Origin: Cyclobacteriaceae bacterium | GTDB taxonomy: Bacteria; Bacteroidota; Bacteroidia; Cytophagales; Cyclobacteriaceae | Direction: 5' to 3' | Assembly: GCA_026129485.1 (NCBI GenBank) | Contig: JAHCHY010000002.1 | Span: forward strand, 240,840 to 304,839 | Length of the DNA stretch: 64,000 nt | Shown here: in pieces, positions 52,824 to 57,616 of the stretch | Position numbering within the stretch: position 1 is the stretch's first letter | Layout of the letters: each line of letters starts with the position of its first letter | Notes under the pieces: generated by a model | The model's input: the letters and a program-made list of their open reading frames with translations, nothing else | Told to the model about the DNA's origin: nothing | Database searches by the model: none | Translations under genes and position numbers: made by a program

Positions 52824-53927
52824 TTATACCCGCTCCGCTACCTGGTTCATTACTTTGGTTTGCACCTGTATCGATTCGTGGTGAATGAGCTTGAGCAAAT
52901 CGTTGGTAAACTCTTCGTTTAAGCCCATCGCCTTACATAAGGCAATCCGGGTCTGCACGATTTCTTCCCAGCGACTTACCTGCAAAATGGTAACGTTATT
53001 TTCTTTTTTATAATGGCCGATCTTTTCCGAAATCTTCATGCGCTGCGAAAGCTTCTGCATGATCTCATCATCCAACTGGTCGATCTGCTCGCGCAAAATG
53101 CTGAGCGTATCCTTGAAGGTTTTATTCTCAACCGAAGAAGTACGCACCACCAGCTCGCTCACGATTTTGCCCAGCACTGCCGGGGTAACCTGCTGTTTGG
53201 CATCGCTCCACGCTGCATCGGGGTTAATATGGCTTTCAATCATCAGGCCGGCCATATCCAGGTCGAGCGCCTTTTGCGAAATAAACGCGATCAGGTCGCG
53301 GTTGCCGGCAATGTGGCTGGGATCACAAATCATATCCAGCTCGGGCACACGTGTTTTCAATTCGATGGCCAGATCCCACATGGGTGCATTTCTGAACGGG
53401 CCTTTTTCAAACGAGGAAAAACCACGATGAATGGCAGCCAGCTTGGTGATACCGGCTTTGTTCAAGCGCTCGAGCGCACCCAGCCACAGCTCCACATCGG
53501 GATTAATGGGGTTTTTAACCAGCACCGGAATATCCACACCTCTCAGGGCATCGGCTACTTCCTGCACCGAGAACGGGTTTACGGTTGTGCGTGCACCCAC
53601 CCAAAGAAAATTAACACCTGCTTTTAAAGCCGCTTCCACGTGCGTGGCATTGGCCACTTCGGTGGTTACCGGCAAACCGGTTTCCTTACCTGCTTTTATC
53701 AGCCATTGTAAGCCCACATCGCCAGCGCCTTCGTACTGGCCGGGCCGGGTGCGCGGCTTCCAGATACCGGCACGCAATGCATGCACTTTGCCGGTGGCTG
53801 CAATCTGTTTGGCGGTGGCAATGGTTTGCTCTTCTGTCTCTGCACTGCATGGTCCGCTGATGATAACGGGTCTGCTCGTTTTCATCCACGATGCTATCGG
53901 TTCGAGCTGTAGTCCTTTCTTTGTCAT
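52824..53927 (-). CDS. Bifunctional DAHP synthase / chorismate mutase
   Basis: The 367-residue enzyme joins the first step of the shikimate pathway to chorismate mutase. Residues about 1-260 are the KDO8P-synthase-like (type I-beta) DAHP synthase: RPVIISGPCSAETEEQ, LRAGIWKPRTRPGQYEGAG, NFLWVGARTTVNPFSVQE and MICDPSHIAGNRD. Residues about 275-355 are an AroQ chorismate mutase (SILREQIDQLDDEIMQKLSQRMKISEKIGHYKKEN). It is the last gene of the pheA-aminotransferase-tyrA operon, 37 bp after tyrA. Fusion to chorismate mutase usually confers feedback control by prephenate or its products. Confidence 0.93.
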   Translation of the reverse strand: MTKKGLQLEPIASWMKTSRPVIISGPCSAETEEQTIATAKQIAATGKVHALRAGIWKPRTRPGQYEGAGDVGLQWLIKAGKETGLPVTTEVANATHVEAALKAGVNFLWVGARTTVNPFSVQEVADALRGVDIPVLVKNPINPDVELWLGALERLNKAGITKLAAIHRGFSSFEKGPFRNAPMWDLAIELKTRVPELDMICDPSHIAGNRDLIAFISQKALDLDMAGLMIESHINPDAAWSDAKQQVTPAVLGKIVSELVVRTSSVENKTFKDTLSILREQIDQLDDEIMQKLSQRMKISEKIGHYKKENNVTILQVSRWEEIVQTRIALCKAMGLNEEFTNDLLKLIHHESIQVQTKVMNQVAERV

Positions 53928-53964: not shown

Positions 53965-54855
53965 TTATGATACAAGGGTTTCTTTGTTCTGCGTGCCGGG
54001 CTTGTCGGCTTGCTGATCCAACACTCTGCGGATTTCATTTGCCTTCGACATAATGCGATGCAGCTCTTTCGTATCGCGTTTCATTAAATGATAATGAAAC
54101 TTTTGCAGGTGCATGATGTACTCCAGCAAGGCCTGGCTCAGGTACTCTACGTTCTGCTCAAAAATAGGTGTCCACATATCGGGCGAGCTTTTAGCCAGGC
54201 GCACGGTAGAGGCAAACCCGCTACCGGCCAGGTCGAAAATATTTTTCTCGTCTTTTTCAATATCAAGAACAGTTTGCCCCAGCAGAAATGAGCTTACGTG
54301 CGAAAGGTGCGATACATACGCTACGTGCCGGTCGTGCTCATCCGCTTCCATGAAAATGGTTTTCATCTCCAGCGCGTCAAATACTTTCATAGCTGTGTTG
54401 AGCGCTTCAACAGAAGATTTTCCGGCTTCGCAAATAATATTGGTCTTACCTTTAAACAAGCCATCGAAAGCTGCCTGCGGACCGGAGTTCTCAGTTCCGG
54501 CAATGGGGTGAGCGGCCACAAACTGCTGGCGTTTCGGGTGGTTCGCTACCGATTTGCAAATAGACGTTTTGGTTGAGCCGGCATCGATCACCACAGCATT
54601 TTTCTTTACAATATCCAGCACAGTCGGCAAGAAAGCGTTCAGTGCATTTACCGGGATGGATAATACAACAAGGTCAGCCGATGACAAGGCTTTATCTTCC
54701 GTAAGCATTTTATCCACGAGTCCAAGCTCTACAGCTTTAACTCCATTAGCCGCGTTTGCATCTACACCAATCAGTTCGGTGGCAATGCCTGCCCTGCGCA
54801 AGCCTATTGCAACAGATCCTCCAATCAATCCTAATCCCACTATGGTTGTTTTCAT
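53965..54855 (-). CDS. tyrA: Prephenate dehydrogenase
   Basis: TyrA oxidatively decarboxylates prephenate to 4-hydroxyphenylpyruvate for tyrosine synthesis. The 296-residue protein has the NAD(P) loop VGLGLIGGSVAIGLRR (residues 6-21), SIPVNALNAFLP, the conserved VIDAGSTKTSICKSV and AAHPIAGTENSGPQAAFDGLFKG blocks, and HDRHVAYVSHLSHVSSFLL. No chorismate mutase domain is fused here; that activity is on the neighbouring DAHP synthase. It overlaps the aminotransferase gene by 4 bp. Confidence 0.94.
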   Translation of the reverse strand: MKTTIVGLGLIGGSVAIGLRRAGIATELIGVDANAANGVKAVELGLVDKMLTEDKALSSADLVVLSIPVNALNAFLPTVLDIVKKNAVVIDAGSTKTSICKSVANHPKRQQFVAAHPIAGTENSGPQAAFDGLFKGKTNIICEAGKSSVEALNTAMKVFDALEMKTIFMEADEHDRHVAYVSHLSHVSSFLLGQTVLDIEKDEKNIFDLAGSGFASTVRLAKSSPDMWTPIFEQNVEYLSQALLEYIMHLQKFHYHLMKRDTKELHRIMSKANEIRRVLDQQADKPGTQNKETLVS

Positions 54856-56039
54856 AACTGACTTACTGCCTCCTTTTTCACTGCTAAAAATTTTACAATA
54901 CGCTCGTGCGCCTCTTCCAGTTTTTCCTCAGTAGCGCACAACGAAATCCTGATAAAGCGGGAACCGGCCTCACCAAAAATAAAGCCCGGTGTAATGAACA
55001 CGTGCGTACCGTACAATATTTCATCAATCCATTTCTCTACATCCTGAACATATTCCGGAGCCTTTGCCCACACAAACAAGCCAGATTGTTTTTTAGAATA
55101 GGTACAGCCCAACGCATCCAGAATTTGACGCGCGGCTTCTCTTCTCTTTTTATAAACTTCGTTTAATTCAGCAAACCACTCTTTTCCGTTCTTCAATGCT
55201 TCGGCAGCAGCCTGCTGCAACCCTAAAAACATTCCGCTATCCATATTGCTCTTTACACGAAGCACCGCATCAATCAAATCTTGATTACCCGCTACCCAAC
55301 CAATGCGCCAGCCGGCCATGTTGTGCGATTTGCTCAGAGAGTTTAACTCCAATGCCACATCGGCAGCGCCTTCAACCGCTAAAATACTTTGCGGGTTGTC
55401 ATTCAATATGAGTGAATACGGGTTATCATTTACAATCAAAAAATTGTTCTGGCGGGCAAGATCGACCAGCGCTTTTAATTCTTCCTTCGAGGCCACGCGG
55501 CCGGTAGGCATGTGCGGGAAATTCACCCACATGATTTTTACATTCGATAAATCCGATTTCTTTAATGCTTCCACATCAATACCCCAGTCGAGCGATTCCT
55601 GAAGTTTATACGTTCTTACTTTGGCTCCCACCAATTTAGCCACCGATGAATACGTGGGGTAGCCCGGATCGGGAATCAGCACTTCTTCGCCTTCGTTTAC
55701 AAACGCCATCGCAATATGCATGATACCTTCCTTCGAGCCCATCAACGGAAGTATTTCTGTTTCAGCATTCAGGTTAACACCATACGTATTTTTATAGAAC
55801 GCCTGGATGCCTTGCCGCAAAGCAGGTATTCCTTTATAGCCCTGGTAGCCGTGGCTGGTTGCTTTTTGTGCTGTATCGGTTAACGCCCGGATGGTTTCAG
55901 CAGATGGCGCGAGATCGGGGCTTCCGATACCGAGATTAATTACCGGCAATGCAGGCGTATCAAGCCCGCGAACTTCAGCCAGCTTTTTGCTGAAGTAGTA
56001 TTCTTCTACATGGGCAATCCGGTTTGCGGTTTTAATCAT
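54852..56039 (-). CDS. Class I/II pyridoxal-phosphate aminotransferase of the aromatic operon
   Basis: A 395-residue fold-type I aminotransferase starting MIKTANRIAHVEEYYFSKKL at ATG 56039, 1 bp after the pheA stop. Landmarks are VINLGIGSPDLAPS, LPLMGSKEGIMHIAMAF, VLIPDPGYPTYSSVAKL, MWVNFPHMPTGRVAS, and the PLP lysine in ELNSLSKSHNMAGWRIGW. From its place between pheA and tyrA it probably transaminates phenylpyruvate and 4-hydroxyphenylpyruvate. Sequence alone would also allow an aspartate- or diaminopimelate-type substrate. Confidence 0.9.
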   Translation of the reverse strand: MIKTANRIAHVEEYYFSKKLAEVRGLDTPALPVINLGIGSPDLAPSAETIRALTDTAQKATSHGYQGYKGIPALRQGIQAFYKNTYGVNLNAETEILPLMGSKEGIMHIAMAFVNEGEEVLIPDPGYPTYSSVAKLVGAKVRTYKLQESLDWGIDVEALKKSDLSNVKIMWVNFPHMPTGRVASKEELKALVDLARQNNFLIVNDNPYSLILNDNPQSILAVEGAADVALELNSLSKSHNMAGWRIGWVAGNQDLIDAVLRVKSNMDSGMFLGLQQAAAEALKNGKEWFAELNEVYKKRREAARQILDALGCTYSKKQSGLFVWAKAPEYVQDVEKWIDEILYGTHVFITPGFIFGEAGSRFIRISLCATEEKLEEAHERIVKFLAVKKEAVSQL

Positions 56040-56040
56040 A

Positions 56041-56883
56041 TCACTTGTATTCAATCTTTGCCTTTTTGTACTCACCCAGAATATTCAGGTTCTTTACTTG
56101 CCTTAGTACTTCCCCAATCGCAGTTTCATAGCTTTTGCGCTTTTTCCATTCCACATCAATGTGAATGGAGTACTCGCTGGGCTTACCAATAATCGGTATC
56201 GACTGGATTTTAGACAGGTTGATGCTGTTCTTTTTAAACGTCATCAATGCTTCGGCCAGGCTGCCTACCTCGTTGGCCACTTCAAAATATAACGAAGCCT
56301 TGTTGCTGTCGCTTGCTGTTTTGATCTTGCGCGTAAGAATCAAAAAGCGGGTAAAATTTTTCTTATGGGTTTCAATCCTCTTTTCGAGTATCTGCAACCC
56401 GAATCTTTTGGCCGCAAACTCATTGGCAATGGCTGCGGTAGTCTTCAGCTTTTGCTCTTTCACCTTACGGGCCGAAAGAGCCGTATCTTCACTTTCCACA
56501 AGCTGCACGCCATTGAGCTTATACAAATAATCCGAACACTGGCGTATGGCCATCGGGTGCGATTCGATCGTCCTGATGTCGGCCAGCTTAACACCGGGCG
56601 CAGCCAGCAGGTGCATGTGTATGGGCAGGTATATTTCGCCCACGATCGAAAAATGATATTCCTGCAATAAAAAATAGTTGGGCAAAATGCTTCCCGCGAT
56701 GGAATTTTCAATCGCCATTACGGCATAATCCGCTTCACCGCTTTTAAGCGATTCGCACAGCGTATGAAACGACAGGCATTCCATTGTATGGATAGGCTCC
56801 TGAAAGTAGGTAAACGCAGCTATTTCATGAAAGCTGGCCGCAATGCCCTGTATGGCGATCTTCAGTTTTTTCTTTTTACGCAT
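56041..56883 (-). CDS. pheA: Prephenate dehydratase
   Basis: PheA converts prephenate to phenylpyruvate. From ATG 56883 the protein is 280 residues, MRKKKKLKIAIQGIAASFHE. The catalytic part includes YAVMAIENSIAGSILPNYFLL and KKNFTRFLILTRK, the T-R-F motif. The C-terminal ACT domain (about 195-275; SLYFEVANEVGSLAEALMTF, INLSKIQSIPIIGKPSEYSIHIDVE) should bind phenylalanine for feedback inhibition. A TTG five codons upstream lies in the T-tract of the attenuator and is rejected as the start. It is the first structural gene after the leader peptide described below. Confidence 0.94.
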   Translation of the reverse strand: MRKKKKLKIAIQGIAASFHEIAAFTYFQEPIHTMECLSFHTLCESLKSGEADYAVMAIENSIAGSILPNYFLLQEYHFSIVGEIYLPIHMHLLAAPGVKLADIRTIESHPMAIRQCSDYLYKLNGVQLVESEDTALSARKVKEQKLKTTAAIANEFAAKRFGLQILEKRIETHKKNFTRFLILTRKIKTASDSNKASLYFEVANEVGSLAEALMTFKKNSINLSKIQSIPIIGKPSEYSIHIDVEWKKRKSYETAIGEVLRQVKNLNILGEYKKAKIEYK

Positions 56884-56897
56884 AATCCTATCAAACA

Positions 56898-56925
56898 AAA
56901 AGTCCCGACTTACACCGGGACTTTT
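56898..56925 (-). terminator. Attenuator terminator hairpin of the aromatic amino-acid operon
   Basis: On the minus strand AAAAGTCCCG pairs with CGGGACTTTT around an 8-nt loop and runs straight into a T-rich tail, 15 bp before the pheA ATG. The 5' arm AAGTCCCG can instead pair with CGGGACTT lying inside the leader peptide region (plus-strand positions 56970-56977), so terminator and antiterminator exclude each other. Confidence 0.85.
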
Positions 56926-56948
56926 GATTATCTGCTTTGTTTATTTTT

Positions 56949-57026
56949 TTAACAAACCGATCCTCTTTCAAGTCCCGCAGGGGATTGATAAAAGTACCAG
57001 AAGAAGTAAAATCGGTTAGCGTTCAT
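56949..57026 (-). CDS. Aromatic-operon leader peptide (attenuation peptide)
   Basis: A 25-codon reading frame starts at ATG 57026, behind an A-rich ribosome-binding stretch (TTAAAAGAT), and stops at TAA 56949-56951. Its codons 6-13 read Phe-Tyr-Phe-Phe-Trp-Tyr-Phe-Tyr: eight consecutive aromatic residues out of 25, just upstream of prephenate dehydratase. Directly after these codons CAATCCC can pair with GGGACTTG, and a ribosome stalled on the aromatic codons would cover the first arm. The freed CGGGACTT can then pair with the 5' arm of the terminator. This is the layout of ribosome-mediated attenuation known from enterobacterial pheA and trp operons. Too short for routine gene callers. Confidence 0.88.
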   Translation of the reverse strand: MNANRFYFFWYFYQSPAGLERGSVC

Positions 57027-57175
57027 ATCTTTTAACGATGCCAAGAAAAACGAAAAAATCTGCATCTGCAAACCCATCCAATAAATGTTTTAAAAATTCC
57101 GGTTTAACTAACCCTTGTTAGCCCTTACCGGTTACGGCTCAATGTCTTACCTTTACATTCACCAACATTTCTGAT

Positions 57176-57616
57176 ATGAAACAATTTGTATTCCTGGTGG
57201 TGATTGTCCTGCTCAGCGCCTGCGATAAGCGTAACTCGTCTGTATCGGAAACCGATGATACCCGTGATGATCCCAACCAGGTATTATACGACCAGGTAAT
57301 GGATGTGCACGATGAGGTGATGCCTAAAATGGACGAGATTATGAGGCTTAAACGACAATTACAGGAGCAAATAGCCAATACTCCGGGTATGGTGGTGGAA
57401 CGCAAACAGCAGCTTGAACGGATGATCAGCAACCTCGATTCGGCCGGTGCGGCCATGATGAACTGGATGCACAAGTTTAACCCCCTGCCCGATTCAGCTG
57501 ACCCGGAAAAAGCACGGGAATACTTAGAGAGTGAAATGGAGCGCATCCGGAGTGTTAGGACCCTTATGCTGGAAAGTATTGATAAAGCCAAACAGGAGGC
57601 TACAAGTAAACAATAA
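57176..57616 (+). CDS. Small predicted lipoprotein with coiled coil, function unknown
   Basis: Not recognised as a named family. The 146 residues start MKQFVFLVVIVLLSACDKRN, a lipoprotein signal with Cys16 in LSAC-D. An acidic spacer follows, then a long helical part with heptad-like spacing (VHDEVMPKMDEIMRLKRQLQEQI, VVERKQQLERMISNLDSAGAAMMNWM, EYLESEMERIRSVRTLMLE), suggesting an extended coiled-coil lipoprotein of the envelope. It lies 150 bp from the divergent leader peptide and 18 bp upstream of the SET-domain gene on the same strand. Confidence 0.8.
   Translation: MKQFVFLVVIVLLSACDKRNSSVSETDDTRDDPNQVLYDQVMDVHDEVMPKMDEIMRLKRQLQEQIANTPGMVVERKQQLERMISNLDSAGAAMMNWMHKFNPLPDSADPEKAREYLESEMERIRSVRTLMLESIDKAKQEATSKQ

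Follow-up and report, generated by a model that had tools for sequence, protein, structure and literature searches.

In the attenuation of enterobacterial phe and trp operons, the leader RNA follows a logic in which a protector, an antiterminator, and a terminator succeed one another in this order. The element described here resembles the enterobacterial pheA attenuator (pheL) in that its leader is rich in codons for the regulated amino acids and pheA is the first gene behind it. Unlike in pheL, Tyr occurs in the codon run as regularly as Phe, the gene row also comprises tyrA and a DAHP synthase/chorismate mutase gene (DAHPS/CM), and the run lies inside an additional stem. The Rfam model of the enterobacterial leader (RF01859, Phe_leader) scores 22.5 bits (E = 0.16) against the window, i.e. 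the whole 64,000-nt stretch of Cyclobacteriaceae DNA that was analyzed, with gathering set at 55 bits.

Within the Bacteroidota, an RNA motif has been described whose name, Bacteroid-trp (RF01692), points to Trp genes (PMC2864571, in its accessible part). The present element is likewise a Bacteroidota motif, but does not match that model, which appears neither at gathering in the window nor among the 15 weak matches that Rfam gives for the leader region at E <= 10. The best of these, at E = 0.004, is to rimP, on the plus strand across the terminator hairpin; all were set aside as weak. At gathering, no Rfam family matches anywhere in the window, Bacteroidota trp/phe leaders included, for which the sequence-only reading from which the analysis started had suggested a search as a check.

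For Flavobacterium psychrophilum, the accessible part of PMC9723704 gives strong clues that amino-acid operons are preceded by leader-peptide attenuators; it also reports 5' elements without Rfam match upstream of pheA and hisG in other Flavobacteriaceae genera and describes the phylum as being without Shine-Dalgarno sequences. The Flavobacteriaceae pheA element and the present one are both structured, lie upstream of pheA in the same phylum, and lack an Rfam match; the present one, unlike the former, occurs in Cytophagales relatives, and the two are likened by description, not by structure, as far as the accessible text of that source goes (PMC9723704). Leader-like sORFs are mentioned for Bacteroides in the accessible part of a second source (PMC7366714). 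To the extent that these two texts are accessible, they indicate that this kind of attenuator is already known, also in this phylum (PMC7366714; PMC9723704); the latter, in its accessible part, is the only directly relevant earlier report found. The same element may have been predicted in print before, e.g. in comparative papers cited in PMC4833913 (Lyubetsky, 2007; Lopatovskaya, 2010). The principle is an old one, and the new contribution is a detailed account of the Cytophagales element.

Layout of the pheA leader region

The element occupies positions 57026..56892 of the minus strand, directly before pheA. From 5' to 3' on this strand, a leader, a 23-nt A-rich linker, and a terminator hairpin are followed by the pheA start codon at 56883. 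The features are as follows.

56949..57026, minus strand: leader peptide ORF, 25 codons plus stop; a similar leader in 82/82 distinct upstream regions
56988..57011, minus strand: aromatic codon run FYFFWYFY, eight aromatic codons in a row, proposed stall site
57011..57017, minus strand: 5' arm AACCGAT of the stem enclosing the run (columns 19-25 of alignment A1)
56955..56961, minus strand: 3' arm ATCGGTT of the enclosing stem (columns 78-84 of alignment A1)
56981..56987, minus strand: segment 1, CAATCCC, imperfect pairing with segment 2
56970..56977, minus strand: segment 2, CGGGACTT, a copy of the terminator 3' arm that pairs with the terminator 5' arm
56914..56925, minus strand: terminator 5' arm, including segment 3 (AAGTCCCG, 56916-56923)
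56897..56909, minus strand: terminator 3' arm (segment 4) and U tract, 98.4% of cells paired
56041..56883, minus strand: pheA, prephenate dehydratase, first gene past the leader (Pfam PDT, E = 9.8e-57)
54852..56075, minus strand: aminotransferase class I/II (Pfam PF00155)
53965..54855, minus strand: tyrA, prephenate dehydrogenase (Pfam PDH_N and PDH_C)
52824..53927, minus strand: DAHP synthase fused to chorismate mutase (Pfam DAHP_synth_1 and CM_2)

All elements that the sequence-only reading had claimed are present at their places on the minus strand: the 25-codon frame (MNANRFYFFWYFYQSPAGLERGSVC) with its aromatic run at 57011..56988, the terminator hairpin said to end 15 bp before pheA (56925..56898), and the leader arm at 56977..56970 that repeats the terminator 3' arm and is complementary to 56923..56916. 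The row of genes that it had named behind the leader (pheA, aminotransferase, tyrA, DAHPS/CM) is confirmed by Pfam.

The open frame of the leader reaches back to 57077 (42 codons); relatives align with the 25-codon start. The hairpin has a 12-bp stem and a 4-nt loop and is followed by a T tract. It is the only terminator-like hairpin in 381 bases of the window (shuffle mean 0.3), and by sequence it represents a predicted intrinsic terminator between the leader and the first gene. The next ORF upstream of the leader (57176-57616, plus strand, no Pfam match) is divergent, so that the terminator ends no visible upstream minus-strand gene. Taken by itself, the folding energy of the leader region is unremarkable (z = -1.92; 8/200 shuffles equally good). 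A Bacteroidota-type promoter is found upstream of 23/82 leaders of the comparison described below, versus 7% in shuffles, and none is found in the window at the same score; the A-rich ribosome-entry signal is slight (0.35 versus 0.29).

Conservation of the codon run and the RNA helices

Relatives were collected by a scan of genome contigs, from which the best 80 of 169 pheA relatives were retained, and by a second search of 58 relatives, in which 47 genomes matched and 30 loci were obtained. Together with the window's own, 111 loci yielded 82 distinct upstream regions, with identical last 150 bases counted once and a second cut of the window's own region left out as an 83rd entry. Of these, 80 carry a leader at most 300 bases upstream in which 6 to 8 of 8 codons are aromatic; in the remaining two (L071, L075), it is present further upstream, giving 82/82. 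A terminator is found in 81/82 in the stretch examined, and the last region (L056), where that stretch is shorter, shows one too, again giving 82/82; a T-rich tract past the stem is seen in 81/82. Cultured relatives among the carriers are Chryseolinea serpens DSM 24574 and Ohtaekwangia koreensis DSM 25262 (loci L024, L034). The observation is thus confirmed as real and well beyond chance, with a short upstream ORF carrying a codon run for the operon's products in every distinct region; in the window, Phe and Tyr synthesis genes lie behind it. One leader (L013) is frameshifted; pheA of the same genome (G023) contains internal stops, and a sequencing error is therefore likely.

The conservation of the aromatic codons, proposed earlier as a check, is borne out in frame. 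The best 8-codon window contains on average 7.6/8 aromatic codons in frame 0 over the 82 sequences, versus 3.0 and 1.8 in the other frames and 3.9 in shuffles of the same bases, and the first codon position of the run is T in 95% of cases. F and Y each occur in 82/82 runs. Past the run, the reading frame varies among relatives (GLERESVC versus RDLR), and the bases of segment 2 are retained. At the level of sequence, the run is selected as codons, the remainder of the leader as RNA.

The helices were evaluated on alignment A1 (82 sequences, 81 distinct rows counted). The terminator is paired in 98.4% of cells, shows changes on both sides in 8/12 pairs, and exceeds all 500 shuffles in all five measures. 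The antiterminator (segments 2:3) is paired in 91.2% of cells, versus 17-62% when slid, and lies above all shuffles in paired fraction and covariation score. Covariation of the stems, which the sequence-only reading had suggested as a check, is thus found for the terminator, but the antiterminator has only two pairs with changes on both sides, a number reached by 435/500 shuffles. Such change would be limited by the coding role of segment 2 and the two partners of segment 3. Segments 2, 3, and 4 nevertheless change together at the same position in 10/82 sequences, e.g. from C-G-C to A-U-A or from A-U-A to G-C-G; these three-way coordinated changes and the 91.2% pairing characterize the antiterminator as mutually exclusive with the terminator.

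The pair AACCGAT/ATCGGTT, which had been proposed as a possible second stabilizing stem, is conserved in relatives with compensatory changes: 77.4% of cells are paired, 5/7 pairs show changes on both sides, and upon swapping arms between dissimilar sequences the own pairing is stronger in 71/82 one way and 68/82 the other. The 1:2 hairpin (columns 51-58/63-71) is paired in 82.6% of cells, with both-side changes in 4/8 pairs. Taken jointly, the enclosing stem and the 1:2 hairpin are paired in 80.1% of cells versus 72.0% in shuffles (0/500 as high), and 447/500 shuffles reach their count of both-side-changed pairs. Among 24 representatives below 70% identity, the paired fractions amount to 98% for the terminator, 86% for the antiterminator, 71% for the enclosing stem, and 78% for the 1:2 hairpin. 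An extension of the antiterminator finds modest support in a sequence swap test, in which the own pairing is stronger in 52 and 59 of 81, versus 29 to 42 of 81 in two controls.

Proposed mechanism and alternative readings

Judged from its composition and its conservation, the element very probably attenuates transcription through coupling to translation, with charged tRNA-Phe and tRNA-Tyr as the sensed signals. Stalling, termination, and read-through are the events to which the observed leader, codon run, helices, conservation, and gene content point. A ribosome stalled in the F/Y run would cover segment 1 and open the enclosing stem, whereupon segment 2 of the opened leader would capture the 5' arm of the terminator (segment 3). 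Short pairings of the leader end with the linker probably lengthen this antiterminator, and the polymerase would then read into pheA, the aminotransferase gene, tyrA, and the DAHP synthase/chorismate mutase gene. With both tRNAs charged, the advancing ribosome would shield segment 2 during synthesis of segments 3 and 4; the antiterminator could not form, and transcription would stop. In 33/82 sequences, a stop codon lies at most 6 nt past segment 2, so that a terminating ribosome would keep this segment covered. The window belongs to the other 49, in which the stop is further off and termination would have to rest on timing and on the reformation of the enclosing and 1:2 stems.

Folding under ribosome masks, which are crude and contain no kinetics, was assessed on transcripts ending at segment 3 as the proportion of segment 2 that pairs with segment 3. 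Over the 82 sequences, this fraction averages 0.63 without a ribosome and 0.93 with a mid-run stall, which raises the pairing by more than 0.2 in 34/82 and lowers it by that much in none. A ribosome on segment 2 brings it to 0.00, by construction; one at the stop codon gives 0.00 where the stop is near (33 sequences) and 0.76 in the remaining 49. If the ribosome stalls at the end of the run, the average is 0.93 with a shorter footprint; a stall on the last codons of the run with a wider one (14 nt each side) yields 0.21-0.24 on average and 0.50 in the window. The position of the stall in the run and the true footprint consequently matter.

For the window, the antiterminator reaches 0.92 without a ribosome and 0.97 with a ribosome at the stop codon. 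The protector hairpin is weak at equilibrium, with a 1:2 pairing of only 0.05, though this pairing is conserved. Of the anti-antiterminator that had been proposed for CAATCCC, the conserved pairing thus stands, but the strength ascribed to it does not, and the timing of the ribosome probably decides. In these models, a protector that acts by thermodynamics alone fits the window poorly. In full-length RNA at equilibrium, none of the masks tried keeps the terminator from winning (window: 0.98), which means that the switch must be kinetic. Coupling and timing are thus likely to decide, with the enclosing stem and the 1:2 hairpin assisting as pause or protector.

The sequence-only reading had gone further and taken the mixed F/Y/W run to suggest joint sensing of Phe, Tyr, and Trp, placing the whole operon under control of charged tRNA-Phe, tRNA-Tyr, and tRNA-Trp. 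The Phe/Tyr part of this claim is supported, with the conserved run at the head of the gene row. The inclusion of Trp is unlikely: the window's run does contain one TGG codon, W occurs in 23/82 runs, and the DAHP synthase of the gene row also feeds the Trp pathway, but 59/82 runs lack W altogether, and trpE in the same genome has a WWW leader of its own, MSQLVHTAWWWHKSKFDW, followed by a terminator (L199, G000:C13). WWW leaders recur in relatives, with a WW or WWW leader beside a terminator in 20/30 trpE upstream regions. Since trpE has its own leader, the best reading of the pheA run is that W is optional in it.

A leader that works by ribosome stalling could also act through a hairpin masking translation initiation at pheA, with no termination involved. 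The short distance in the window (about 15 nt between hairpin and pheA ATG) would suit this alternative, as would a median distance from U tract to pheA of 18 nt and a minimum of -16 (start-equivalent). The T-rich tract in 81/82 sequences speaks against it, and the distance extends to a maximum of 142 and is at least 40 nt in 23/80 measured; such variability is easier to reconcile with termination than with a masked start site, and the masking alternative is quite improbable. A constitutive attenuator or plain upstream ORF, independent of amino-acid supply, deserves hardly any credence, because F/Y codons in frame in 82/82 leaders before F/Y biosynthesis genes, together with competing helices, would then lack an evident reason.

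Related leaders in the genome, the order, and the class

The predicted Phe/Tyr attenuator is accompanied by further leaders in the same genome. A leader MTNAQSIHGHHHHVNRTGGIALF followed by a terminator precedes hisG (L200, G000:C40), and His-run leaders recur in relatives. Among 30 trpE and 30 hisG loci, some of them truncated, a leader with terminator is found by script in 22 and 21, respectively, and by manual reading in 20 of the trpE loci; the trpE leaders at L229 and L243 were rejected as spurious ORFs. Weaker candidates stand before genes that we take to be thrA and ilvE-ilvD, namely a candidate Thr/Ile leader (MEAIITTTITG) upstream of a homoserine dehydrogenase fusion (L221) and, upstream of an ilvD gene pair (L222), an Ile/Leu/Val-rich ORF with a strong terminator behind it.

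A covariance model built from the enclosing stem, the 1:2 hairpin, and the terminator finds one strong site in the window's own genome (E = 1.4e-18; next 0.015). Of the 18 weaker own-genome matches (E 0.015 and worse), seven were inspected (L113-L119), and none of these seven has a leader with at least 5/8 aromatic codons. In 390 genomes of the order, matches at E <= 0.01 occur in 138, many of them doubtful; among the matches listed, all 29 at E <= 1.2e-6 adjoin a pheA homologue, and 18 of these come from a different family (f13), in which pheA shows 34-48% identity and the core reads like CGGGGCTC versus AGCCCCG. Two genomes of f13 carry a second weak match about 1.4 kb from the pheA leader (G194:C4:25441-25591 and G374:C1:3186292-3186427), at which the scan finds no aromatic leader with terminator. 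Within the window's family, 9/11 regions around weaker matches (G113 left out of the count) have a leader like MLITAAIYFTFFYFYFRSQNRIGAVYCPVKN plus a terminator before DAHP synthase; with L148, this arrangement occurs in 10 genomes of 8 other genera. In one of these genomes (G085), DAHP synthase/chorismate mutase is followed by 3-dehydroquinate synthase and EPSP synthase, and pheA lies about 3.6 kb from the leader.

Across the class, a PDT match is found in 42/159 genomes, and an aromatic leader (at least 5/8) with terminator lies upstream of pheA in 19/42 (reverse strand 1, shuffles 0.2). As 3 of the 19 belong to the window's family, 16/37 pheA-bearing Bacteroidia genomes outside it have such a leader. 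These leaders may all be homologous or partly convergent. No aromatic leader was recognized before pheA in G050, G051, and G054 (other families), and G047, with two aromatic ORFs before pheA and no terminator by scan, was counted as a miss. Tandem aromatic leaders before pheA were observed at L197 (G559:C30; MAYRSAYYFYFFCFFSSCRG and MGYTYYYFFSLMDHRRLWVV) and, in G047, at L154 (G047:C11; MLQTRFFFGYYYFYAAA and a second Y/F-rich ORF, a locus without terminator by scan).

A weak model match in G307 precedes an aromatic amino acid hydroxylase gene (Pfam Biopterin_H), with leader MKRSFNTYYYYYYREIISWSKCYMF and a terminator. This enzyme makes Tyr from Phe. A hydroxylase search in 58 relatives of G307 matched in 38 and gave 30 loci, 15 of which have an upstream ORF with at least 4 Tyr in 8 codons, 11 of these with a terminator by scan (reverse strand 1, shuffles 0); the other 15 have no Tyr-run ORF upstream. 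The runs reach YYYYYYY, and leaders such as MKTMNNYYYYYYYRMMSFGMGVVCS with terminators were seen at L286, L305, L306, L307, L301, L284, and other loci. They favor the view that Tyr is a genuine signal for these bacteria, and no report of Tyr-run leaders before hydroxylase was found in the open-licence literature. Their position beside the hydroxylase suggests a strategy broader than the enterobacterial textbook set.

On a wider reading, for and against which the balance is even, the dual Phe/Tyr attenuators of Bacteroidia would form an RNA family that is old and as yet undescribed, that keeps its place in front of aromatic operons when their genes are rearranged, and in which a composite antiterminator competes with the terminator and the enclosing stem. 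The family would be part of a wider leader set (Phe/Tyr, Trp, His, perhaps Thr/Ile and branched-chain, and Tyr-only before hydroxylase). The present element is a well-delimited candidate RNA switch for Phe/Tyr synthesis in Bacteroidota, with an 82-sequence alignment ready for an RNA family, and offers a case for asking how leader-peptide attenuation works without Shine-Dalgarno initiation. If the wider reading is true, leader peptides that sense charged tRNA would be a principal means of amino-acid control in this phylum, which the accessible literature reports to be without Shine-Dalgarno sequences.
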